Of a DNA stretch of 22,809 bases, positions 3,098 to 17,880 are shown piece by piece. The stretch's first letter is position 1; the number at the start of each line of letters is the position of its first letter. The notes under the pieces were generated by a model. It had not been told where the DNA came from. It saw nothing but the letters and a program-made list of their open reading frames with translations, and did no database searches. Both the position numbers and the translations under genes were made by a program. Location: the IMG/VR virus record IMGVR_UViG_3300046370_000366, positions 1 to 22,809 of that record. One strand, 5' to 3'. Source of the stretch: a virus.

Positions 3098-3481
3098 ATG
3101 GCAAACGAACCAGCAAAACCAGCACTATACAGTCGAGTCAAGGCTGCAGCTAAACGAAAGTTTAAGATATTCCCTAGCGCATACGCTTCTGCGTGGATTG
3201 TAAAGGAATATAAGAAAAGGGGCGGAACGTATAAGGGTAAAAAGTCTGGTAAGACAGGTGTAGCTCGATGGATGAAAGAAAAATGGACTACTCAAGATGG
3301 TTCACCTTGTGGATCAGCTAAGTTCAAGGGCGTAAAAAAATGCAGACCCACTGTGCGTGTTTCATCCAAAACGCCTGTCACTTGGAAAGAACTCAAGGCA
3401 AAAGGCAAGGCTTCTGAGGCTGTACGTGAGAAAAAACGTGTAGGAATGGGTAAACGCACTAAATCCATAAAAAGAGACTAG
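3098..3481 (+). CDS. inverted small basic protein (PSAYAS..VKEYKKRGG family), function unknown
   Basis: A 127-aa, very basic protein on the plus strand inside an otherwise minus-strand head operon. The N-terminal part reads KPALYSRVKAAAKRKF then FPSAYASAWIVKEYKKRGG. A YKGKKS segment, a KEKWTTQDGSPCG segment and a Lys/Arg-rich tail follow. I recognise this pattern from marine phage and large algal-virus genomes as a conserved family of unknown function (possibly the one called DUF5872, from memory only). The basic charge suggests nucleic-acid binding. It has its own short leader (3053-3097) and runs tail-to-tail into the terminase nuclease gene: the two stop codons share the four bases CTAG at 3478-3481. 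The inversion suggests separate regulation or a moron-type insertion. Confidence 0.65.
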   Translation: MANEPAKPALYSRVKAAAKRKFKIFPSAYASAWIVKEYKKRGGTYKGKKSGKTGVARWMKEKWTTQDGSPCGSAKFKGVKKCRPTVRVSSKTPVTWKELKAKGKASEAVREKKRVGMGKRTKSIKRD

Positions 3482-4263
3482 CGCAGCACGTACATTGGAG
3501 CGTTACTACCCTTCTCATTACGCCAAATAGCATAATCTGTCGCATCCGACATATGTCCCCTGTCCCCATTATCTATTTTTAGCCCTTTATCATTGACAAT
3601 AGAGTACATATAGTCTTTTATGACGTGATCGCACCTTGTATTGATTAGTAACCTTCGCTCTCCATTGATTCCAGCGTAAATTACGTTGTTTACCTTGTCC
3701 ACACGCACTTTTCTTCGTGGATTTTGGATGTCTAACTCGTTTTTATACGAAATTTGGTGTTCATCAAACACTTCTCGCACGTAATCCCAGTCATTTTTAC
3801 CTACACGACCATAATTACCACTTTTTTGGTTAGAAGTGTTGTCTCCAGACAATAAAACCTTCGAGATGCCCCATTTTTTCAGTAATTCTACCGCTTTTAG
3901 GGCTTGCTCAGTGGTCAAAGCCTCTTTGGAGAAGATTTCGTCAAAGACAACATACTGCCTAAGCCCATTACGAGCCTTTTTAACTTGGAGCAAAGCCCAA
4001 CAATGAGGAGACCTGTTGAAATCAGCACAAAGCCAAACAGGACTACCATTATCGTAGTCGAGAGCCGTAAGATTGCCATCAGGGTAGTGATTATAGCCGT
4101 CAAAGTGCTTGTAAGCCTTTCTCGTTGGGTCATCTGTTTCCTCGCTCATTTCGTACCCCAATTTATACGACAGAAAGTCCATCGCCTCTTCTTGGAGTAG
4201 CCGTTGTTTACTGTGATTGGTTTCCCACAAGGGAATATCCCAAGTCTTGTCAGGTTCTCTCAT
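3478..4263 (-). CDS. terL: terminase large subunit, C-terminal nuclease part (split gene)
   Basis: A 261-aa protein equal to the C-terminal half of a large terminase. The N-terminus (TWDIPLWETNHSKQRLLQEE) matches the linker usually found after the ATPase core ('...PLWP..~s...l'). The RNase-H-like nuclease follows: LCADFNRSPH with Asp81 as first metal ligand, LLSGDNTSN with Asp141, and GHMSDATDYAIW with Asp240/Asp243. These are the three acidic positions expected in terminase nucleases, which cut the phage DNA concatemer. No Walker motifs are present; they are in the separate gene at 4586-5446. Its ATG overlaps the stop of the intervening resolvase-like gene by four bases (ATGA at 4260-4263), so translation is probably coupled. 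The nuclease looks intact, so this is not an obvious pseudogene. Confidence 0.85.
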   Translation of the reverse strand: MREPDKTWDIPLWETNHSKQRLLQEEAMDFLSYKLGYEMSEETDDPTRKAYKHFDGYNHYPDGNLTALDYDNGSPVWLCADFNRSPHCWALLQVKKARNGLRQYVVFDEIFSKEALTTEQALKAVELLKKWGISKVLLSGDNTSNQKSGNYGRVGKNDWDYVREVFDEHQISYKNELDIQNPRRKVRVDKVNNVIYAGINGERRLLINTRCDHVIKDYMYSIVNDKGLKIDNGDRGHMSDATDYAIWRNEKGSNAPMYVLR

Positions 4264-4604
4264 ATAGAAAGTATAGATTTAAACGCACTATCAGAATCAA
4301 CAAAAAAGATGGGGACACCCATTTCGGCACCCTCCTCTACTATATGTAATGCACCTGATCGGTGCTCGTGTAATGTTTTAAGGTCGTAAGTGAGTATGCC
4401 CCATCCATTTTTAATGCAATTATCGAATAAAGAATTAAACTTCTTAGAAGAGACTCCTTTATGGACTATTTCCCAATGTTGTTTTACGACTTTAGCTTCA
4501 AGCATACGTACAAAAGAGTTAATCTTGTTTTTAACTGAGTTTATTTGTTTCTGGTCAACATCTGTTGTAAATCTAGCGTATATAACTACTTTAGGTTGTT
4601 CCAT
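4260..4604 (-). CDS. serine-resolvase-like small protein inserted between the two terminase halves
   Basis: A 114-aa protein resembling only the N-terminal catalytic domain of serine recombinases/resolvases. It has VVIYARFTTDVDQ (residues 6-18) in place of the usual YxRxSTxxQ, a KGVSSKKFNSLFDN segment (49-62) like the 'GxSG...RP.~~~' region, WGILTYDLKTLHEHRSGAL (68-86) like '~vvv~~ldRl~R', and EMGVPIFFVDSDSA (94-107) like the 'GV.~~s' strand. The nucleophilic Ser position is Thr13, and the DNA-binding/zinc part is missing, so it is probably not a working recombinase. It overlaps the ATPase gene by 19 bases and the nuclease gene by 4. A decayed mobile element, a repurposed structural linker or a terminase partner are all possible. 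Confidence 0.6.
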   Translation of the reverse strand: MEQPKVVIYARFTTDVDQKQINSVKNKINSFVRMLEAKVVKQHWEIVHKGVSSKKFNSLFDNCIKNGWGILTYDLKTLHEHRSGALHIVEEGAEMGVPIFFVDSDSAFKSILSI

Positions 4605-5446
4605 TCTTCTACTTTGTAGCCTGTCTTATCTTCCTTTACCGATATTTGTAGTACGTTAAAGATGCCCGACTTCATGAGCCGACTATTAGCATCATTTGGA
4701 TGATAAGGCGTACAAACGCTTAAAACAATACCTTTATCGTGAACACGCTTGATCCATGTATTAGACACCTTGTTCCAAACGGTTTCCCTACGAGCAGTAG
4801 ATATTCTGTCCTCGTCATTGCACACATCATCAAGAATCAAGACACCAGCTCGTTGTCCTGTGGTTTGGGTCAGCACTGCATACGCCTCATAAGTGGGGTT
4901 ACCAGTACGGTTACGACTTTTTACAATTATGCGTTGGGTCGAGCCTGTATCGGTGCGGTCAAACTCAACAGGATTGAAGTTATGTTCCCTACACCAGTAT
5001 CGGTACATATCACTCATGAACAGCGCACGCAAAGACAATATTCTTTTAGTTGAAATACCACCGTCAGCAGATACAATCAAGGTTTCTAGCTCGTGCTTTC
5101 TCGTGGTCATATACGCACTCAGACCAATAGGCACTTGCTGAGACTTACCAGTGTTATAGGGCGCACGAATCAAGCCATTCAAACGAGCGTTCTTAGACAA
5201 GGCTTCTTGCTCCCAATCGTAAATGCCTTGCTGCATTGTTAAATGAATCTGAGCTTGCGTTACTTTTCTACCATCTTGATCGGCTAAACAATTCTCAATA
5301 AATGAGTTCCTAAGTTCCAACGAATCAGGCGGTGGTTCGTGTCCAACCACATTAACCAATAAATCAGACCAATTACTTTTTTGGGGCATACGCTCGCTTA
5401 CATAGGGTGCATTGCGACTTACACTCCCTGTTACCAGAGATGACAC
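4586..5446 (-). CDS. terL: terminase large subunit, N-terminal ATPase part (split gene)
   Basis: A 286-aa protein equal to the ATPase half of a large terminase, the motor that pumps DNA into the head. It has the Walker A-type APYNTGKS (residues 95-102), an adenine-contact/QxxI-like QAQIHLTMQQGIYDW region (65-79), Walker B VLILDD followed by acidic residues (202-212), and the coupling motif SVCTPYHPNDANSRL (243-257). The protein stops 29 residues after that motif, just where one-piece terminases enter the linker to the nuclease. The nuclease is encoded at 3478-4263. The start at 5446 is GTG; an ATG at 5389 (MPQKSNW) is an equally acceptable start and would shorten the protein by 19 residues. 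The 5447-5499 spacer shows nothing further. Confidence 0.85.
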   Translation of the reverse strand: MSSLVTGSVSRNAPYVSERMPQKSNWSDLLVNVVGHEPPPDSLELRNSFIENCLADQDGRKVTQAQIHLTMQQGIYDWEQEALSKNARLNGLIRAPYNTGKSQQVPIGLSAYMTTRKHELETLIVSADGGISTKRILSLRALFMSDMYRYWCREHNFNPVEFDRTDTGSTQRIIVKSRNRTGNPTYEAYAVLTQTTGQRAGVLILDDVCNDEDRISTARRETVWNKVSNTWIKRVHDKGIVLSVCTPYHPNDANSRLMKSGIFNVLQISVKEDKTGYKVEEWNNLK

Positions 5447-6006: not shown

Positions 6007-6550
6007 AATCTACCTCTATTGCCTCCATTCTTTTTGCAAACTCTCTAAGCTGATCCATGTTCAGGAAGTCTTGTAGAACTTGCAGTGTTTGCTCTCGCAT
6101 CTTGTTTTTATACTCAATAATGATAGTCGGCTCGTTGCTCAGCTCCTTACGAACGTCATGTAGGTCCTTCATGATTTTACTTAGGTCTTTGGGGTGTATA
6201 TCAACAAGATTAGGATGGGTCTCTAGTATGTTTACGACCTTAACTAAAATATACTCAACCTTAGCAGATAGCTTCTCTTTTCTCTCTTCTAGTGAACCCA
6301 CCCTTGACATCAACTGTTTATACGTTGATATACCCTCTAAAATTTCCTCATCATCTATCAAGCCAGTTCTCCCCTTAACTATCATATCTGACTCTTTAAC
6401 TTCTTTTTCTATCTCTTTTCTCTTCCTCTTCCACTTGTAAATGGTTTGTCGCGCTACCCCCCATTTGTCAGCAGCCTGTGTCACCGACCCTAACATGACA
6501 CAATCGTCTAATATTTCTATTTTTTCTTCGTTAGTAAACTCAGGATTCAT
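5993..6550 (-). CDS. terS: terminase small subunit
   Basis: A 185-aa protein starting at the ATG at 6550 (MNPEFTNEEK), chosen because it overlaps the upstream stop as ATGA; a second ATG lies two codons earlier at 6556. The N-terminus holds a helix-turn-helix (VTQAADKWGVARQTIYKWKRKRKE, about residues 24-47) of the type that binds the packaging site. A long charged helical region (about 70-150), expected to build the oligomeric ring, follows, and the C-terminus is acidic. Small terminases recognise phage DNA and pass it to the large subunit. The position directly before the nuclease and split large terminase supports the call. The length is usual for the family. Confidence 0.72.
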   Translation of the reverse strand: MNPEFTNEEKIEILDDCVMLGSVTQAADKWGVARQTIYKWKRKRKEIEKEVKESDMIVKGRTGLIDDEEILEGISTYKQLMSRVGSLEERKEKLSAKVEYILVKVVNILETHPNLVDIHPKDLSKIMKDLHDVRKELSNEPTIIIEYKNKMREQTLQVLQDFLNMDQLREFAKRMEAIEVDYELI

Positions 6551-6720
6551 AACCACCCATTTTTTCGCACAAAGTCCATTATTGACCCTATACGGTTGTA
6601 AATATAGTTAGGAAGCTTATCAGACATACTAGGTATTTTACTCAAACACTCTATCACAGTCTTCATCTCTTCAAGAAGCTGCTCCTTAGACTCAATCTCC
6701 TCTTTTTTATGCCACGACAT
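6547..6720 (-). CDS. 57-aa charged protein, first gene of packaging operon
   Basis: A short frame starting MSWHKKEEIESKEQLLEE at the ATG at 6720 and ending ...DFVRKNGWL at 6547. Its TGA overlaps the small terminase ATG (ATGA at 6547-6550), good evidence that it is translated and coupled. The N-terminal half is a highly charged helix; the second half has KIPSMSDKLPNYIYNRIGS. I do not recognise a family. As the first gene after a promoter candidate, it may be a packaging accessory protein or part of a small-terminase assembly. No membrane span is seen. Confidence 0.55.
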   Translation of the reverse strand: MSWHKKEEIESKEQLLEEMKTVIECLSKIPSMSDKLPNYIYNRIGSIMDFVRKNGWL

Positions 6721-6746
6721 ATTAATTACTCCGTTTACAGTGTTGA

Positions 6747-6779
6747 CAAAACAACGTAAAAAATAAGCACAATTCCAAA
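6747..6779 (-). promoter_or_regulatory. candidate promoter of the packaging/head operon
   Basis: Read on the minus strand, TTTG (6776-6779) is followed after 21 bases by TTGTTTTG (6747-6754). This is one mismatch from the Bacteroidota consensus TTTG-N19-21-TAnnTTTG. It sits 27 bases upstream of the first packaging gene. The rest of the 6721-7052 spacer holds this site, an A/T-rich repeat cluster and a terminator, and no gene I can support. Confidence 0.35.
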
Positions 6780-6940
6780 TAAGTTACACTTTTTTCTGAA
6801 TTTGGTTCTTTTGCGAAGGGGAGGGTATTTAGGGCGTAGGCAAGTATATTTTAATATGTATACCCCTATATAATATAAGAATATAGTTTTATTATATATA
6901 TAAGAATTCAAGAAAAAGATCCATTATAGTTTGCTGCCGA

Positions 6941-7058
6941 ATTATATATTTTAATTATATATTTTAATTATATAGGTTTAAAGTATAGACAAAAAAATAG
7001 CCCTGCATATAATGCAAGGCTATAAGTTTAAAGTATATTTTAATTATATATTTTAATT
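6941..7058. repeat. A/T-rich 14-base tandem repeats flanking a terminator
   Basis: The 14-mer ATTATATATTTTAA occurs twice head-to-tail at 6941-6968, followed by a partial copy. Nearly two further copies in another phase lie at about 7034-7058, running into the stop of the gene at 7053. The flanking sequence GTTTAAAGTATA also occurs on both sides (about 6977 and 7027). The repeats bracket the minus-strand terminator at 6991-7023. They could be a DNA-unwinding or protein-binding region, or simply slippage products. Confidence 0.5.
6991..7023 (-). terminator. intrinsic terminator after the A/T-rich accessory operon
   Basis: On the minus strand an ATAGCC-TTGCAT / ATGCA-GGGCTAT hairpin is followed by seven T residues. 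The stem has 11 base pairs with one internal mismatch, and arms at 6997-7008 and 7012-7023. It lies 30 bases after the stop at 7053, placed to end transcription of the genes at 7053-8433 before the packaging operon. Confidence 0.7.
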
Positions 7059-7346
7059 GTCAAGGTTTACATAGTTTGAAAGATCAAGTCCAACATCATT
7101 TTGTTTTTCGTGTACTCCTAAAAGTTGATTTATAGATTCACTTATAAGAAAAAATTCACGTATAGTTATTTTATTTTTAAGTTTATTATATGACATATTT
7201 TTTAGGTCACCTATACGATTTTGTGAAACACCTTTTCCATCTTTATCTATAAGTTTAGTTTTAGCAGATATAGATACAGCTGTTATAACTTTTATATTAT
7301 ATAATTCATCTTTAAGTTCTAAATGATATTCTATAAAATTTTTCAT
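7053..7346 (-). CDS. hypothetical protein, 97 aa
   Basis: A 97-aa Lys/Asn/Ile-rich protein. The middle has KTKLIDKDGKGVSQNRIGD and MSYNKLKNKITIREFFLISESINQLL. I do not recognise a family. The frame starts with ATG overlapping the stop of the preceding gene (ATGA at 7343-7346), so it is coupled to that gene. The predicted mix of strand and helix suggests a soluble globular protein. The very A/T-rich codons are shared with its upstream neighbours but not with the head genes. Confidence 0.6.
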   Translation of the reverse strand: MKNFIEYHLELKDELYNIKVITAVSISAKTKLIDKDGKGVSQNRIGDLKNMSYNKLKNKITIREFFLISESINQLLGVHEKQNDVGLDLSNYVNLDN

Positions 7347-8071
7347 GCTACTAACCTTATATTTTTAGATTTTAGTTTTTTAGCTTTTCTATATTCTGAA
7401 CTATATATTTTAGTAGGAACCTTTTTTATACCATGCTTTATATATTTATATCTATCTTTAATTAATAACCATAATGAAGCTTGATATTCATAATAGTTTA
7501 TATTGTATTTTTCAAGATAAGGTATAGAAACTTTTTTAGTTATAGCTTCAAGGTCTTCATATATTCCAACATTAGAAATTTTTGCTTTCCAATCATCAGT
7601 ATTTAATACAAGGCATTTTATATGATGTGTATCTATAGTTATATAAGAATTATCTAGCATAATATTATTATAAAAACTATATGTTTTTTTAGCTTTATTT
7701 CTAGTTATAAATACATCTTTACCTTCAAACAGTGGTAAAGCTTTTTTATAGTTTGCTTTAGATTGGAAAATTCTATGTTTCTCTATATCTAATTTTATAT
7801 CTTTACGTACAATATTACATATATTATGAACTTCAATTAAGTTTCTAGTCCATTCCATATTTGAGGACATTATAGCTATCAATTGAGCAATCTTATCAAC
7901 ATCTAATATACCGTAAAATTCATGTATATTTTTAGCTAAACGATTAGTTTCAAGATACCATGCTTTACCATGGTCAATATAATAATCATTTAAAAATTCA
8001 GAGCAATATATAAGATTGCTACTAATATCTTTTCTATGATTAGGTACAATTATTTCATATTCTTTTTTCAT
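7343..8071 (-). CDS. phage protein with 'W..N ... K..SFY.NI ... TIDTH' pattern (HhH-GPD/DUF7178-like)
   Basis: A 242-aa protein whose ordered motifs match a family I know from many tailed phages: AQLIAIMSSNMEWTRNL (usually 'AalSP...W..N'), FQSKANYKKALPLFEG (ka..~l.g), NKAKKTYSFYNNI (K...Fy.Ni), YITIDTHHIK (vTiD.H), and a C-terminal YEYQASLWLLIKDRY (Q...W). Members are often predicted to have a DNA-glycosylase-like helix-hairpin-helix fold, and the conserved Asp and Lys would fit a base-excision-type active site. No activity is established to my knowledge, so treat this as a family resemblance. It begins with a TAATAAC-ATG leader almost identical to that of the 34-aa gene at 8433. Its codons are very A/T rich. 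Confidence 0.5.
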   Translation of the reverse strand: MKKEYEIIVPNHRKDISSNLIYCSEFLNDYYIDHGKAWYLETNRLAKNIHEFYGILDVDKIAQLIAIMSSNMEWTRNLIEVHNICNIVRKDIKLDIEKHRIFQSKANYKKALPLFEGKDVFITRNKAKKTYSFYNNIMLDNSYITIDTHHIKCLVLNTDDWKAKISNVGIYEDLEAITKKVSIPYLEKYNINYYEYQASLWLLIKDRYKYIKHGIKKVPTKIYSSEYRKAKKLKSKNIRLVA

Positions 8072-8075
8072 GTTA

Positions 8076-8324
8076 TTATATATTTAAAGTTTGATTTATT
8101 AGTTCATGATATTTTTTATTCGTACTATCAATAATTGATATACGATTTAATCTAAATTTACGTATAGCAAAATTTAGTTCGTATAATGTATTACCACATA
8201 TAGGGCAACCTGAAGTCCATTTTATATCGGAAAATATATTTTTTTCTATATCAACTTCTATAGTATCTTCTTCATCTAAATCTATATTACATTCTATACA
8301 GTAGGTTTCATTTTCATTATACAT
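8076..8324 (-). CDS. small zinc-ribbon-like protein
   Basis: An 82-aa protein with two Cys pairs, CIECN (residues 9-13) and CPICG (about 40-44), spaced as in a zinc ribbon. Between them is an acidic EEDTIEVDIEKN segment. The C-terminal half is basic and helical (FAIRKFRLNRISI). Zinc ribbons of this size in phages often bind DNA, RNA or host RNA polymerase, but the partner here is unknown. It lies 5 bases upstream of the 242-aa gene and 4 bases downstream of a 34-aa membrane peptide gene, all in one short operon. Confidence 0.6.
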   Translation of the reverse strand: MYNENETYCIECNIDLDEEDTIEVDIEKNIFSDIKWTSGCPICGNTLYELNFAIRKFRLNRISIIDSTNKKYHELINQTLNI

Positions 8325-8328
8325 AATT

Positions 8329-8433
8329 TTATCTATTTATAACGTGTATTACTATATGCATTCCAAAGTATATCCAAGTAAAAACCATAAATGTAATAAA
8401 AGATATACGGTATAATCGTTCGAATTTTTTCAT
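8329..8433 (-). CDS. 34-aa single-span membrane peptide
   Basis: A short frame from the ATG at 8433, beginning MKKFERLYR and followed by an almost unbroken hydrophobic stretch (ISFITFMVFTWIYFGMHIVI) that would span the membrane once with a basic cytoplasmic N-terminus. Its leader ATATATAATAACATG is nearly identical to that of the gene starting at 8071. The stop lies 4 bases before the next start. Small size, position and the shared initiation site support translation. It may be a superinfection-exclusion or host-takeover peptide; that is a guess. Confidence 0.5.
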   Translation of the reverse strand: MKKFERLYRISFITFMVFTWIYFGMHIVIHVINR

Positions 8434-8520
8434 GTTATTATATATTTTAGTTTATATTATAAGGCCTATTTTTTGCCTTGTTTTTCAGTACTATAATATA
8501 CTATTTATTGATTAAAATAC

Positions 8521-8542
8521 AAAATACTAAATACAGTATTTT
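8521..8542. promoter_or_regulatory. palindromic operator candidate, copy 1
   Basis: AAAATACT-AAATAC-AGTATTTT is a perfect inverted repeat with 8-base arms. It lies 88 bases upstream of the 34-aa gene at 8433. The core (AATACTAAATNNAGTATT) recurs at 8912-8929. A repeated palindrome in front of two transcription units looks like a repressor or activator site. The 8434-8669 spacer holds this and A/T-rich DNA, and no gene I can support. Confidence 0.45.
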
Positions 8543-8669
8543 CAATAATATACATTAAATTGATTGTAAAAATGTACCTTATATTATACAAAAAAGCAGC
8601 TAGCTATATTATATATTAAAATATATTTTTAAAGTATATAATTAGTAAAAATTCATCTTATATAAATAC

Positions 8670-8855
8670 CTAAAAATTCATTCTATAAATGTGATATAGA
8701 TTTTTTAGGAACTGTCTTTCCTGAAAATTGAGCCTATCTGAAAATTTGAAAGATACATATAGTAAATCTTTCATCACTTCATCTGTTATAGACAGTTTAG
8801 ATTGAATGTGTTTTAGCTTTGTCTCTATATCTAGAGAGTAGTTTGTTATTGTCAT
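8670..8855 (-). CDS. hypothetical protein, 61 aa
   Basis: A 61-aa protein, MTITNYSLDIETKLKHIQ then a helical basic segment ending NLYHIYRMNF. It is probably all helical, with heptad-like Leu/Ile spacing, so it may dimerise. No family is recognised. It is a single-gene unit with a palindromic operator candidate 57 bases upstream (8912-8929) and related spacer DNA on both sides, consistent with a small regulator or a moron. The start is ATG with an A/T-rich leader and no clear ribosome binding site. Confidence 0.5.
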   Translation of the reverse strand: MTITNYSLDIETKLKHIQSKLSITDEVMKDLLYVSFKFSDRLNFQERQFLKNLYHIYRMNF

Positions 8856-8911
8856 AATTTAAAAGAACTTTGTTATTGTTTGTATACCTCAATATAAGCA
8901 ATATAATACAG

Positions 8912-8929
8912 AATACTAAATGGAGTATT
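8912..8929. promoter_or_regulatory. palindromic operator candidate, copy 2
   Basis: AATACT-AAATGG-AGTATT is an inverted repeat with 6-base arms. It matches the core of the site at 8521-8542 in 16 of 18 positions. It lies upstream of the 61-aa gene starting at 8855. The similarity continues on the promoter-proximal side (TGTATT and an A/T run), so operator and promoter may have been duplicated together. The 8856-9078 spacer holds this site and the terminator at 9025-9055. Confidence 0.45.
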
Positions 8930-9024
8930 ATTGATTTTGACAAATTGAGTAATTGAGTAAATCAAATTCTGGATATGAGGGTATTAGTAAAAATCCATTT
9001 TAAGGGTACGTAAAAATTTGGCAC

Positions 9025-9055
9025 AAAAAAACCCTACACAACTCAATGTATAGGG
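9025..9055 (-). terminator. intrinsic terminator of the small early gene cluster
   Basis: On the minus strand CCCTA ... TAGGG closes a hairpin (arms 9051-9055 and 9032-9036, with extra ACA/TGT pairing) that runs into seven T residues (9025-9031). It lies 24 bases after the stop at 9079. It is the second terminator bounding the A/T-rich island and resembles the one at 6991-7023 in layout. Confidence 0.6.
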
Positions 9056-9078
9056 CTTATAACTTTAACGGATGATCC

Positions 9079-9468
9079 TTAATTGAAGTAATAGCTTCCT
9101 AGTAAGGATGAATATGTTTTATCTATATAATCAACCATCTCACTAAGTTCACGTAATACAGAATGTATGTATGGGTTAGCGTGTTCAAGTAAAGAAATGT
9201 AATGACCATAGTCATATATCTCATAGGGAAAATTAGACTCTTTAGCCATTGTTGGCTCCTCTTGATGGCTAAAATATTCATTCACTACATAACTCATTTC
9301 ACTTTCAATATAACACATAGCCATGTCCACCATTGTAGCCTTCTCTACTTGTATTATACCGTTTACTTTTATGCTTTCATTCCATTGCTCAAAGTAAGCA
9401 CACTCACAAAATGTATTTTGTGTTCTGATAAACCTTATTGCATAATCATATATTTTATCTTCCATCAT
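9079..9468 (-). CDS. hypothetical protein, 129 aa
   Basis: An acidic, Tyr/Glu-rich protein starting MMEDKIYDYAIRF. I choose the ATG at 9468 because it overlaps the upstream stop (ATGA at 9465-9468) and a GGAGG lies just upstream. An ATG at 9480 would add four residues, and one at 9465 has slightly better spacing. Aromatic motifs such as YEIYDYGHYISLLEHANPYIH and a helical C-terminus suggest a small soluble globular protein. No family is recognised. It is the last gene of the small early-type cluster. Confidence 0.6.
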   Translation of the reverse strand: MMEDKIYDYAIRFIRTQNTFCECAYFEQWNESIKVNGIIQVEKATMVDMAMCYIESEMSYVVNEYFSHQEEPTMAKESNFPYEIYDYGHYISLLEHANPYIHSVLRELSEMVDYIDKTYSSLLGSYYFN

Positions 9469-9761
9469 GCTTCCTCCCATACAATTGATGAACCAAAGTA
9501 GTACAACCCATTTAGTGTTGGCTCAATTGATTTTAGTTCGTTTATGTAGTCTATATCGTCTCCACTAGTTTTACGTGTCCATTCGATAAACTTGTCTCGA
9601 TTAGACTTGTTAAAGTATGGGTTTTGCCAACCATTCCAATGCTTATTGGTTGGGTCATAAAATGCATCGAATATTGGACACCCTTCGTCACCCTCACAAT
9701 CGAGGGTAACTTTGAATGGTTTCAGTATAAAGTGTGATTGTATTTCTGCTAGTATATTCAT
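9465..9761 (-). CDS. hypothetical protein, 98 aa
   Basis: A 98-aa protein with an N-terminus MNILAEIQSHF that resembles the next upstream gene's MNIIAETPSQL, at DNA level too. It has a DCEGDEGCP segment with two Cys, a Trp/Asn-rich NKHWNGWQNPYFNKSNRDKF stretch and an acidic tail. I do not recognise a family. Its start is one base after the previous stop (TAA-C-ATG), and its stop overlaps the next start. Confidence 0.55.
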   Translation of the reverse strand: MNILAEIQSHFILKPFKVTLDCEGDEGCPIFDAFYDPTNKHWNGWQNPYFNKSNRDKFIEWTRKTSGDDIDYINELKSIEPTLNGLYYFGSSIVWEEA

Positions 9762-10841: not shown

Positions 10842-10850
10842 TTATCCACA
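10842..10850 (+). other. DnaA box (consensus)
   Basis: TTATCCACA, an exact match to the bacterial DnaA box TTATNCACA, lies in the 83-base spacer between the small early genes and the Rep-O-like gene. On the minus strand, the spacer also has TTTG-N19-TATATTAC, a weak promoter candidate for the early cluster that overlaps the box. A DnaA-domain-IV protein is encoded at 17536-17880 in the same phage. Confidence 0.6.
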
Positions 10851-10880: not shown

Positions 10881-11330
10881 TTAATCCTCGTATTCTCTCC
10901 AATCTACCAAACCACCTAATATTGGGGACGTATCTTGTCGTGGTTTGTATGTATTGTTATTGTATTGTTGTGTGTGAAGATTTTTCACTAGTTGGGGTGA
11001 AAATTTCTCACTAGTTTGGTTTGTTTGGGGTGAAAATTTTTCACTAGTTTGATGAAGGTTCAAACGTATCTTAGTAGTTCTATTGTGCCTCTTCTTCGTA
11101 GAAATTATTTTCTTTTGCTCTAACACCCTCAAACAGTCAATAACAGTTCTATTAGATAGGTTTGTTGCAGTACAAATTTGTGACACAGAAATTCTGTCTT
11201 CTTTCTTTCGCCAACCCCAAGTCTTCCTTATGATAGCACAAAGCACTAAAAATTCGGTTGGTTTGAGTTCCCTCATGTATTTATCGAAAATTGAATTTGG
11301 TATTGGTATAAATCCTTCTTGTTCAGTCAT
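10881..11330 (-). CDS. replication initiator, phage Rep-O N-terminal-like winged helix
   Basis: A 149-aa protein matching the N-terminal domain of phage replication protein O. It has FIPIPNSIFDKYMRELKPTEFLVLCAIIRKTWGWRKKEDRISVSQI, where 'R-K-T-~-G-W-~-K-K-~-D-~-I' is diagnostic (residues 35-48), and then a helix-turn-helix-like ATNLSNRTVIDCLRVLEQKKII (55-76). In lambda this domain binds iterons at the origin. The C-terminal third is low complexity and holds repeats (TSEKFSPQ twice) that come from DNA repeats at 10975-11049. There is no helicase-loader domain, so it is shorter than lambda O. It is divergent from the replication operon, with a promoter candidate at 11359-11390. Confidence 0.75.
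   Translation of the reverse strand: MTEQEGFIPIPNSIFDKYMRELKPTEFLVLCAIIRKTWGWRKKEDRISVSQICTATNLSNRTVIDCLRVLEQKKIISTKKRHNRTTKIRLNLHQTSEKFSPQTNQTSEKFSPQLVKNLHTQQYNNNTYKPRQDTSPILGGLVDWREYED
10975..11049. repeat. three iteron-like repeats inside the Rep-O-like gene (candidate origin)
   Basis: Three copies of a 19-base element, consensus TGAAAATTTTTCACTAGTT, lie at 10975-10993, 10998-11016 and 11031-11049, each with at most one change. Each holds a TGAAAA-T-TTTTCA inverted repeat. Spacings are 23 and 33 bases. Because 23 is not a multiple of three, copy one is read in another frame from the other two, so selection is on the DNA. Repeats inside an O-type gene are how the lambda origin is built. 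Confidence 0.65.
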
Positions 11331-12944: not shown

Positions 12945-13027
12945 TTACCTCCGTAGCAGTAGCCCTCATTATCATTTCGGTGGTATTGGGGGCTTCTTTG
13001 TCTCATGAAAGAGGACAAAAATCATGA
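12941..13027 (+). CDS. 28-aa single-span membrane peptide gene with TTG start
   Basis: A frame starting TTG at 12941 inside the ERF stop (TTGA) and ending in a TGA that overlaps the methyltransferase ATG (ATGA at 13024-13027). It fills the whole gap between two genes. The product would read (M)ITSVAVALIIISVVLGAS followed by LSHERGQKS: a single hydrophobic span with a charged tail. The exact fit to both neighbours by four-base overlaps argues for translation. The rare start codon and lack of a family are the weak points. Role unknown; a small membrane effector or lysis-timing peptide is possible. Confidence 0.4.
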   Translation: MITSVAVALIIISVVLGASLSHERGQKS

Positions 13028-14067
13028 CACATGGATCACTATTTTCAGGGATTGGGGGCTTTGATTTAGCCTCAGAATGGATGGGGTGGGACAACAAGTT
13101 TCACTGTGAATGGGAGGACTTCCCACGTAGAGTTTTAGAGTATCACTTTCCAAACGCAATATCTTATGGAGACATCAAACAGACAGACTTCACTATTTGG
13201 AGGGGGCGAATCGACATCCTCTCAGGGGGATTCCCATGCCAACCCTACTCAAACGCAGGAAAACGACTTGGTAAGCAGGATGAGCGCCACTTGTGGCCTG
13301 AAATGCTTAGAACAATTCGAGAAATTAAACCACGTTGGGTTGTGGGCGAAAACGTTCGCGGCCTCCTTAATTGGAATGGAGGGGTGGTTCTCGATGAAAT
13401 CTACGCTGACTTGGAGAATGAAGGCTACGAAGTCTGGACGTTCGTACTTCCTGCTGCAAGCGTCAACGCTCCGCACAGAAGAGATAGGGCGTGGATTATT
13501 GCCTACTCCGACTGCCGTATCGAGGAGCGCAACCGTAGAGCAAACCATGAAGCGCAAGGAGAAGTATGGGGGCATAAAAAGGTCAATGTACTTAGAGAAT
13601 TACCTAGCACTTGGAATGTTGCCGACACCAGTAGCCTCAGACGTGGAGGGGGGAATATCTCACCCAAGGCAGATAAAGTACAAGGGGACGAGATGGGTCA
13701 GGGTGTCCGACAACACAGGGACAGAGTTTGGGGCGAAGCTGAGGGACGTAGCACAACTACTTCCAACACCAACGGCACGAGACTGGAAGGGCAAACAACA
13801 CAGCGAGTACATTCAGGACAGGGGCGAGAATCCCAAGTTCAAGATGGCGAGCGTTCCTGGCGTAGTAGCAAAACTCACGAATACAGATGGGAAACCTTCC
13901 CAACTAAATCCCCAATTTGTGGAGAACATGATGGGATTCCCCGAAAACTGGACTCTATTACCTTTCCTAAATGGCGAAAAGAGTCAATAAAGGCATATGG
14001 CAACGCAATTGTACCTCAAGTGGCTCATCAAATATTCAAGGCAATAGAACGTTATGAGCAGGGCTAA
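13024..14067 (+). CDS. dcm: cytosine-C5 DNA methyltransferase
   Basis: A 347-aa protein with all main C5-methyltransferase motifs in order: I, LFSGIGGFDLA (6-16), the SAM site; IV, GGFPCQPYSNAGKR (68-81) with catalytic Cys72; VI, GENVRGLL (108-115); VIII, HRRDRAWIIA (151-160); and X, GNAIVPQVA (326-334). It transfers a methyl group from SAM to C5 of cytosine, probably to protect phage DNA from restriction. Residues 190-300, where the target recognition domain should lie, are unusually low in complexity (Arg/Gly/Ser/Thr/Gln), which fits a second gene read in another frame over the same DNA (13166-13990). It overlaps the next gene by 14 bases. Confidence 0.88.
   Translation: MTHGSLFSGIGGFDLASEWMGWDNKFHCEWEDFPRRVLEYHFPNAISYGDIKQTDFTIWRGRIDILSGGFPCQPYSNAGKRLGKQDERHLWPEMLRTIREIKPRWVVGENVRGLLNWNGGVVLDEIYADLENEGYEVWTFVLPAASVNAPHRRDRAWIIAYSDCRIEERNRRANHEAQGEVWGHKKVNVLRELPSTWNVADTSSLRRGGGNISPKADKVQGDEMGQGVRQHRDRVWGEAEGRSTTTSNTNGTRLEGQTTQRVHSGQGRESQVQDGERSWRSSKTHEYRWETFPTKSPICGEHDGIPRKLDSITFPKWRKESIKAYGNAIVPQVAHQIFKAIERYEQG
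13166..13990 (+). CDS. nested protein in an alternative frame of the methyltransferase ('LPTP ... LNP.FVE.MMGFP..WT')
   Basis: A 274-aa open frame read +1 relative to the methyltransferase and lying wholly inside it. The translation has real protein signatures: MSATCGLKCLEQFEKLN, STLTWRMKATKSGRSYFLL (79-97), three LPTP motifs (LLPTPTA at 111, MLPTPVA at 151, LLPTPTARDWKG at 198) and LNPQFVENMMGFPENWT (247-263). I recognise the LPTP and MGFP..WT patterns from phage proteins usually annotated as methyltransferase-associated. In the main frame the same bases give PICGEHDGIPRKLDS, also a conserved methyltransferase stretch, so both frames look selected. The start is ATG with no clear ribosome site. 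Function unknown; perhaps a target-recognition or anti-restriction partner. Confidence 0.6.
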   Translation: METSNRQTSLFGGGESTSSQGDSHANPTQTQENDLVSRMSATCGLKCLEQFEKLNHVGLWAKTFAASLIGMEGWFSMKSTLTWRMKATKSGRSYFLLQASTLRTEEIGRGLLPTPTAVSRSATVEQTMKRKEKYGGIKRSMYLENYLALGMLPTPVASDVEGGISHPRQIKYKGTRWVRVSDNTGTEFGAKLRDVAQLLPTPTARDWKGKQHSEYIQDRGENPKFKMASVPGVVAKLTNTDGKPSQLNPQFVENMMGFPENWTLLPFLNGEKSQ

Positions 14068-14452: not shown

Positions 14453-14694
14453 TGAGAAAAAAAATGACTACCAACGAACTAAACATAGTAACACTAATAA
14501 AGGCTAGCCCTAAGCCAGTCAAGTTTACTGACATAGAAAAAGTTATGCACTTTGATGCTAGCAAGGACAAGTATTGGTCTGTGTTTTCTACTATAGCTTG
14601 TTTGGTTGAGTCAGGAATAATAACAACAACAAACCATCCTAGCGTATATTCATTAACCAAATATGGTAGGATGAAGTATGATGAAATAACATGA
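14452..14694 (+). CDS. small winged-helix-like protein, 80 aa
   Basis: An 80-aa protein starting at the TAATG junction (14452); MTTNELN five codons in is an alternative start. The pattern NIVTLIKASPKPVKFTDIEKVMHFDASKDKYWSVFSTIACLVESGIITTTN, then YSLTKYGR, reads like a winged helix: helix, HTH ('~sTI~~LvesGII~') and a wing ending 'LT~~G~~~'. It may be a transcription regulator or a helicase-loader-like factor. No specific family is recognised. It overlaps the helicase gene by ATGA. Confidence 0.55.
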   Translation: MRKKMTTNELNIVTLIKASPKPVKFTDIEKVMHFDASKDKYWSVFSTIACLVESGIITTTNHPSVYSLTKYGRMKYDEIT

Positions 14695-15929
14695 ACCACC
14701 TACACTTAGAAGAGTGTCTTATAGGTACTCTGCTAAACCACATTGAATATAGAGACTTAATATTTGACATAACCGACAAAGACCACTTCCCAAACAGATA
14801 CCCTATATACTTAGAGGCGTGTAGACAACACAGTGAGGGAATGCACTTTGATGCTGAAACCATAAGTGCTAATGTCAAGGATTACCCATATACTCAAATA
14901 CTTGAGATGCAGATGTATGGGATACCCAGTGAACAGAAAATTAAGTCTTACGTATTTGCACTCAAGGAGCAAAGGGATCGAAGGTTACTTAAAGATTCTA
15001 TTGCTAAAACATATCATTACTCTCAAAAAGAGGATATAACCACTGATGACTTATTGCTACACATATCCAAGTTATCTGAGGATACCGAAGAGACTGGTGA
15101 TGCAGGAGCCTTGACCCCTATTGAGATATTTGAGAGAGAATCAAACAACCCTATAAAGCAAAAATTATCAACCAATGTAGGAATTATAGACCAAAAACTT
15201 TATAAAGACGTAGGTCTCCATAAGGGTGATATAAATGTTATACTTGCAGACTCTGGTCATGGTAAAACACAGTTTTCGTTATTTTTGGCTTCTCAGTTAT
15301 TGAATAGTGGTCACGTTGGACTGTGGTTTCAGATGGAGGATTATGATGTCAATACGGCTAAACAGATTGCCCTAAACTCTATGGATCATTGTGATAAGAT
15401 GTTTATTGTTGATGATAAAGATGATATAGACGATATAAAGAGGGTATGCAAGTTAGTAAAACAAGAGCATGGTTTAGACTTTGTGGTGATAGATTACATA
15501 CAAGAAGTGTATGCTAAGGGAAGGTTTGATTCTAGAACCTTGGAACTAAATTATGTGACCAAAGTACTCAAACAGATAGCTAAGGAAGTTAATGTGGTAG
15601 TAATCGTGCCTAGTCAAGTAACCATAAATGACCACGTAAGAAATGGTTGGCAATTAGAGCCTAGGTATAAAGACGCACAATGGGCACAAGTTATTAAGAA
15701 TGTGGCTCATTGTATGACCTCAGTATTTAGACCTTCTATGATTCAGTCATTAGTAGTAAATGATGGGCTCACCCAAAAAGTCTCAGGGTGGCATGAGGAT
15801 CAAAGATTCAATTATAATAGTGTATTTGTTAAGTTAGTAAAGTCCAGAAGAGGTGTTATAAGCCATGAACGAATACAACTAAACCATAACGGAGACAAAG
15901 GACTTGAGATAGCTAAACAAATGTTTTAG
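14691..15929 (+). CDS. dnaB: DnaB-type replicative DNA helicase
   Basis: A 412-aa protein with the N-terminal domain of DnaB helicases (EECLIGTLLNHIEYRDLIF, about 7-25, and FPNRYPIYLEACRQHSEG) and a RecA-like motor: Walker A ILADSGHGKTQF (184-195), a middle segment WFQMEDYDVNTAKQIAL (H1a-like 'E' and 'M'), Walker B DFVVIDYIQEV (263-273), and a motif-3-like VVVIVPSQV (302-310, usually 'SQL'). It would unwind DNA at the fork, presumably loaded at the origin by the Rep-O-like protein. It is shorter than bacterial DnaB (about 450-470 aa). No primase gene is visible in the window. The gene ends the overlapped series begun at 11412. Confidence 0.82.
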   Translation: MNHLHLEECLIGTLLNHIEYRDLIFDITDKDHFPNRYPIYLEACRQHSEGMHFDAETISANVKDYPYTQILEMQMYGIPSEQKIKSYVFALKEQRDRRLLKDSIAKTYHYSQKEDITTDDLLLHISKLSEDTEETGDAGALTPIEIFERESNNPIKQKLSTNVGIIDQKLYKDVGLHKGDINVILADSGHGKTQFSLFLASQLLNSGHVGLWFQMEDYDVNTAKQIALNSMDHCDKMFIVDDKDDIDDIKRVCKLVKQEHGLDFVVIDYIQEVYAKGRFDSRTLELNYVTKVLKQIAKEVNVVVIVPSQVTINDHVRNGWQLEPRYKDAQWAQVIKNVAHCMTSVFRPSMIQSLVVNDGLTQKVSGWHEDQRFNYNSVFVKLVKSRRGVISHERIQLNHNGDKGLEIAKQMF

Positions 15930-17535: not shown

Positions 17536-17880
17536 ATGATAGCAGAACACATTGTAAGTTCCGTATGTAATAGATTTCAAATTACACGAAACGAATTAAG
17601 GAGTCAAAGTAGGAAGACACACCTAGTAGATGCTAGGCAAACCTGTGCATTTGCATTACGAAAATTTGGTTGTACCTACAAATATATAGGAAATGTTATA
17701 AATCGTAAGGATCATACCACAATAATGCACCTATTGAAGAATAGATTGCATAATATTCACGAGAATCAACGTATAGCTAATGAAGCCGTAAATGCATATA
17801 AAGACATGGCTGTTCCTAGGATAAGCCGTAAGAAGCTAAATATGGAGCAGTTTTTAGAGATGGTTCAAGAGAAAAGGTGA
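17536..17880 (+). CDS. stand-alone DnaA domain IV (DnaA-box-binding) protein
   Basis: A 114-aa protein that looks like the C-terminal DNA-binding domain of the bacterial initiator DnaA and nothing else. It has IVSSVCNRFQITRNELRSQSRK (about 6-27), VDARQTCAFALRKFGCTYKYIG (31-52), and NRKDHTTIMHLLKNRL (56-71), where 'DHTT(V/I)' is the DnaA signature. Domains I-III, including the ATPase, are absent (a full DnaA is about 450 aa). It should bind TTATNCACA boxes, three candidates for which lie in this window. It may steer host DnaA or the phage helicase to the origin, or block host initiation. The start has a good AGAGGAG ribosome site. A basic C-terminal tail follows. Confidence 0.78.
   Translation: MIAEHIVSSVCNRFQITRNELRSQSRKTHLVDARQTCAFALRKFGCTYKYIGNVINRKDHTTIMHLLKNRLHNIHENQRIANEAVNAYKDMAVPRISRKKLNMEQFLEMVQEKR

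Follow-up and report, generated by a model that had tools for sequence, protein, structure and literature searches.

Replication origins located inside the O genes of phages have long been known. In lambda, phi80 (gene 15) and Gifsy-2 (O), an initiator of the Rep-O family carries iterons of 18–20 bases with dyad symmetry inside its own gene, just after the part encoding the DNA-binding domain and spaced by 20–24 bases, and in lambda and Gifsy-2 the copies lie in more than one reading frame. In the lambda type, a strand-asymmetric A+T-rich tract, 40–49 bp long in lambda, adjoins the array (PMC4488673, PMC5043065). An origin has been called earlier from repeats inside an O-like gene (PMC8508860). 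We describe a locus of the same kind in a phage from an environmental sample, represented by a 22.8-kb IMG/VR virus record (IMGVR_UViG_3300046370_000366); the window referred to below is the whole of this record, 22,809 nucleotides. Arguing from the sequence, we consider it very probable that the repeat array within the initiator gene of this phage is its replication origin and that the origin is of the lambda type. The features on which the argument turns are the following:

10881..11330, minus strand: initiator gene, Rep-O-like, 149 aa; winged helix followed by a tail predicted to be disordered
11115..11153, minus strand: recognition-helix codons (residues 60–72); a helix in the model, varying with the iteron type
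11030–11049, minus strand: iteron copy 1 in gene order, AACTAGTGAAAAATTTTCAC
10997–11016, minus strand: iteron copy 2, AACTAGTGAGAAATTTTCAC; same reading frame as copy 1
10974–10993, minus strand: iteron copy 3, AACTAGTGAAAAATCTTCAC; frame different from that of copies 1 and 2
10940..10973, minus strand: A+T-rich, G-free tract of 34 bases adjoining iteron copy 3; likely unwinding region

The three copies show no or one mismatch to the consensus AACTAGTGAAAAATTTTCAC and start 33 and then 23 bases apart; all three contain the inner dyad GTGAAAA-A-TTTTCAC, which is exact in copy 1. When the whole window was scanned allowing up to three mismatches, we found these three sites and no others, in comparison with 0.01 expected by chance, which confirms the initial annotation of three repeats with an inner palindrome inside a Rep-O-like gene. 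Its further claim, that the frame of one copy differs and that the likeness of the copies is not due to the protein, was borne out as well: the frames are 2, 2 and 1 in gene order, and when synonymous codons were permuted inside the initiator gene, leaving the protein unchanged, none of the 2,000 shuffles reached the observed array score. The off-frame copy has one and two mismatches to the other two, a likeness equalled in 11 of 20,000 shuffles. Judged by sequence, the repeats are demonstrably independent of the protein code. As controls we used lambda O, phi80 gene 15, Gifsy-2 O and the O protein gene of phage Y11. The arrays were recovered in all four (0 of 300 shuffles each), those in lambda O and phi80 gene 15 coinciding with the initiator binding sites annotated in the records. 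The recovery of these two by the same finder, together with the retention of arrays in relatives, supports the reading of the repeats as an origin.

The initiator is a member of Phage_rep_O (PF04492; E 1.5e-16, 61.2 bits against a cut-off of 28.7) and matches phrog_678, replication initiation O-like (E 2.6e-21). In the AlphaFold2 model, residues 12–90 form a winged helix, with the recognition helix at 60–72 and pLDDT mostly 85–93 over residues 11–80. Residues 95–131 and 135–146 have pLDDT below 50 and are, given this low model confidence, probably disordered. The best PDB matches of the model are winged-helix proteins, generic regulators, and a search of solved structures by sequence gave weak MarR-like matches and nothing better. 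The DNA for the low-confidence linker directly after the winged helix, in the 3' half of the gene, contains the iterons together with the G-free tract. On the gene strand the G-free run extends over 46 nt (10940–10985) and takes in part of copy 3; it is among the longest in the window and is not unique there. The tract is near-identical as DNA in relatives, despite being translated in part in a different frame in one lineage.

In the mechanism that we propose, the 149-aa initiator would bind the three palindromic iterons through its N-terminal winged helix, probably as one dimer per copy. The bound array would strain and open the adjoining tract at 10940–10973, the phage's DnaB-like helicase would be loaded there, perhaps through the initiator tail SPILGGLxDWREYED, and replication would start at the array. 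This C-terminal tail has a similar counterpart, EIILGEII, in initiators of the HTH_36 class; that either may contact the helicase is a guess based on the alignments. The helicase is encoded on the other strand:

14691..15929, plus strand: DnaB-like helicase, the probable client of the initiator; PF03796 E 4.8e-19, phrog_19 E 2.3e-35

Neighbours of the initiator gene, besides the helicase, are an exonuclease and an annealing protein. The window also holds an ORF for a C5 cytosine methyltransferase (13024–14067, plus strand; PF00145 E 1.5e-43) and, inside it and out of frame, a second plus-strand ORF (13166–13990) matching the DNA methyltransferases of phrog_1008 (E 1.4e-22); both look real, and a dual-coding overlap is possible. 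Elsewhere in the window, the large terminase subunit is seemingly split (3478–5446, minus strand) into an ORF matching the ATPase part (4586–5446) and a reading that resembles the nuclease part and has no family match (3478–4263, minus strand), with a small ORF between them (4260–4604) that by eye resembles a resolvase N-terminus. The stretch 6500–9500, with genes of unknown function, has a GC content of 0.22–0.28 in comparison with 0.33–0.49 elsewhere. A search for the host across genome contigs gave only four distant MAG matches. GC skew, which the initial annotation had proposed as a check, has its minimum near 10.5–11 kb, where the genes diverge, and returns to negative values at about 18 kb, at the very point where the genes switch to the minus strand. 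Because its sign follows gene orientation and flips at about 18 kb, the skew reflects transcription, not replication; it does not discriminate between readings and we rejected it as origin evidence.

Five loci (L002–L006) encode initiators 65–96% identical to that of the window. In an alignment with the window, a single position is occupied by three types of iteron, CTAGTGAAAAATTTTCAC (window and L002), GGTAAAGAAATTTTACC (L003) and CTAGTGGAATTTTTACAC (L004–L006), each in three copies and with near-invariant flanks. In L004–L006 the spacing is one base longer and one base is lost downstream, an insertion/deletion pair, and the intervening DNA CACACACAACAATAC is kept in a changed frame (HTQQYNNN versus THTTIHNN). 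The fact that the same DNA is read in another frame indicates that the DNA is conserved, not the protein. A search baited with the neighbouring exonuclease yielded 56 loci, among which the initiator position is also taken by members of other classes, either O-like proteins of greater length or HTH_36/DnaD-like ones with 130–144 aa. The array beat all 60 codon shuffles in 32 of the 35 distinct complete initiator genes beside the exonuclease gene, and 29 of these 32 had at least three iteron copies. The exception is the group of L051, L053 and L055, with 41% identical initiators, where two weak copies are not clearly beyond the shuffles. Significant arrays of at least three copies were found in 53 genes of a wider panel, and in 33 of these the copies are spread over two or more frames. 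Conservation in relatives had been suggested as a check on the repeats, and with the exception of that one group the array is kept at the same place while its sequence has changed. Six unrelated contigs returned by a flank-pattern scan (L008–L011, L014 and L016) were chance matches and were discarded.

Two further observations concern single lineages. The initiator of L067 combines an L059-like DNA-binding domain with an L061-like C-terminus, the junction lying at the iteron region, and this mosaic is a case of recombination at the putative origin. L085, L086, L089 and L094 carry several copies of a second repeat family (approximately ATGGGTRRAAAT) outside and downstream of the initiator gene, at the place taken by a DnaA box in other relatives.

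In near-identical phages, the iteron sequence and the segment of recognition helix and wing switch together while the flanks remain constant. The HTH_36 class gives examples. Identity between L074 and L087 is 96% upstream of the helix and 97% past the array, and drops to 73% for the helix and 64% for the iterons. For L082 and L083 the values are 86% ahead of the helix and 100% for helix and iterons alike, and for L075 and L096 they are 84% ahead of the helix, 100% for the helix and 98% for the iterons. Across an O-type panel (n = 30, including lambda, phi80, Gifsy-2 and Y11), iteron distance followed recognition-helix distance when both neighbouring segments of the DNA-binding domain were controlled (partial Mantel r = 0.41, P = 0.0005), in a test that, like the following ones, reduces and does not fully remove the effect of shared ancestry. 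The HTH_36-type panel gave r = 0.54 (P = 0.0004) with the N-terminal part and the tail controlled. There the effects of helix and wing are not fully separable: with the wing also controlled, the correlation was not significant when the helix was compared at the DNA level (P = 0.085), and a rerun comparing the helix at the protein level gave r = 0.25 (P = 0.014) over the full panel and r = 0.27 (P = 0.07) minus one subgroup. The iterons nearest to those of the window are found in Y11 (94%), L061 (88%) and L165 (82%), and the helices share the pattern SN[RK]xxI[DN]; in L049 and L046 the preceding domain is 82–88% identical to that of the window, yet the helices and iterons differ. This co-change supports the view that the iterons are matched to the DNA-binding segment of the initiator.

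The initial annotation had also drawn on DnaA boxes to either side of the gene. The window contains the following elements related to DnaA:

10842..10850, plus strand: perfect DnaA box TTATCCACA, just past the initiator gene; invariant in L002–L006
11355..11363, minus strand: DnaA-box-like TTTTCCACA, one off the pattern used, before the initiator gene; invariant in L002–L006
17406..17414, plus strand: perfect DnaA box that the initial annotation does not mention, directly following TTGACT-17-TAGATT and ahead of the DnaA-domain-IV gene
17536..17880, plus strand: DnaA-domain-IV (box-binding) module and tail; PF08299 Bac_DnaA_C E 7e-17, DHTT signature kept

If the origin were DnaA-dependent, the flanking boxes would be its core elements and the iterons would assist, as in some iteron plasmids. 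The invariance of both boxes and their contexts in the five close relatives speaks for this, as does the occurrence of TTATCCACA downstream of the initiator in most relatives of the HTH_36 class. We nevertheless think it unlikely. Class b (L058–L079) has the box on the opposite side of the gene, and L085, L086, L089 and L094 lack it after the gene; HTH_36-class boxes occupy the spacer of a TTGACA-17-TAGATT promoter; and the third box of the window overlaps the promoter of the DnaA-domain-IV gene. Relatives of the DnaA-domain-IV protein are encoded at 26 viral loci. The box near the gene is kept in relatives; in L022 and L023 it is reversed and inside the promoter spacer. Boxes with up to one mismatch number 17 in the window in comparison with 36 expected, that is, below chance. 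Thus the boxes of the initial annotation are present and conserved in close relatives and are weaker as pointers to an origin, being moved or absent elsewhere or in promoter context. They resemble promoter operators at least as much, probably are operators on the simplest reading, and need not belong to the origin, though they may have some part in replication; they may be bound by host DnaA or by the DnaA-domain-IV protein of the phage, tying in early transcription. For the window's own box at 10842 the promoter context does not exceed background (8/12 against a background median of 8), and we claim none there. No solved structure matched the DnaA-domain-IV protein in a search by sequence, and a limited literature search found no paper on phage regulators of this kind. 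The pairing of such a protein, encoded by the phage, with boxes that match it offers another lead open to testing.

Quite improbable, in our judgment, is a role of the repeats solely as operators for the initiator's own transcription, with replication starting elsewhere. The generic regulators among the model matches and the location of the repeats at a divergent transcription switch would suit such a role; against it, the repeats of all close relatives whose array is significant lie about 280–360 bases into the gene, away from the promoter, the family and position match those of lambda O and phi80 gene 15 with their annotated initiator sites, and genes for a helicase, an exonuclease and an annealing protein are nearby. 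The repeats might also be a by-product of repeated peptide motifs in the initiator tail, and in class b all copies are indeed in one frame and encode a motif such as TSVVSTP. That explanation is barely credible as a general one, since the copies are in differing frames in the window, in L046 and in the HTH_36 class, codon shuffles fall short of the real array in class b too, and the tail is predicted to be disordered.

Returning to the array as a lambda-type origin, we tentatively extend this reading. The recognition segment and the three iterons might have been exchanged repeatedly as a cassette, with origin specificity under diversifying selection and the DnaA-domain-IV protein also controlling early promoters through its boxes; we regard the proposal as possible and somewhat doubtful. 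Candidate examples of such exchange in otherwise near-identical genomes are L074/L082/L087, L075/L096 and L082/L083. If it is true, the selecting agents could be, for instance, co-infecting relatives, satellites or origin-targeting nucleases. For PLE and ICP1, the origin-cutting nuclease Odn is thought to drive diversification (PMC8263062); none is known for the group of the window. The PLE RepA origins likewise have three semi-palindromic iterons and an initiator module swapped among close relatives, and differ in belonging to a satellite and lying in non-coding DNA (PMC8263062).

In comparison with lambda, the window has three iterons instead of four, an initiator of 149 aa instead of 299 and a dissimilar iteron sequence. 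Its phage also encodes its own helicase, and no P-like partner or DnaC relative was recognised among the proteins scanned, a subset of the ORFs on a contig that is probably incomplete. The O protein of the cultured Shewanella phage vB_SbaS_Y11 (OQ927986) is 346 aa long and followed by an annotated replication protein P, and the rest of its domain is about 37% identical to that of the window; its recognition helix is nevertheless similar (SNKNVIDSL versus SNRTVIDCL), and its iterons AACTGGTGAAAAATTTT, in five copies spaced by 33, 36, 21 and 23, are nearly the same. The proposed origin is of a textbook type; the unusual feature is that matched specificities form a natural series while their backgrounds stay nearly constant. 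With about ten initiator/iteron specificities among the relatives, the recognition code should be readable and can be tested using natural proteins, as can the questions of how an initiator and its multiple sites change together and what selects for this co-change.
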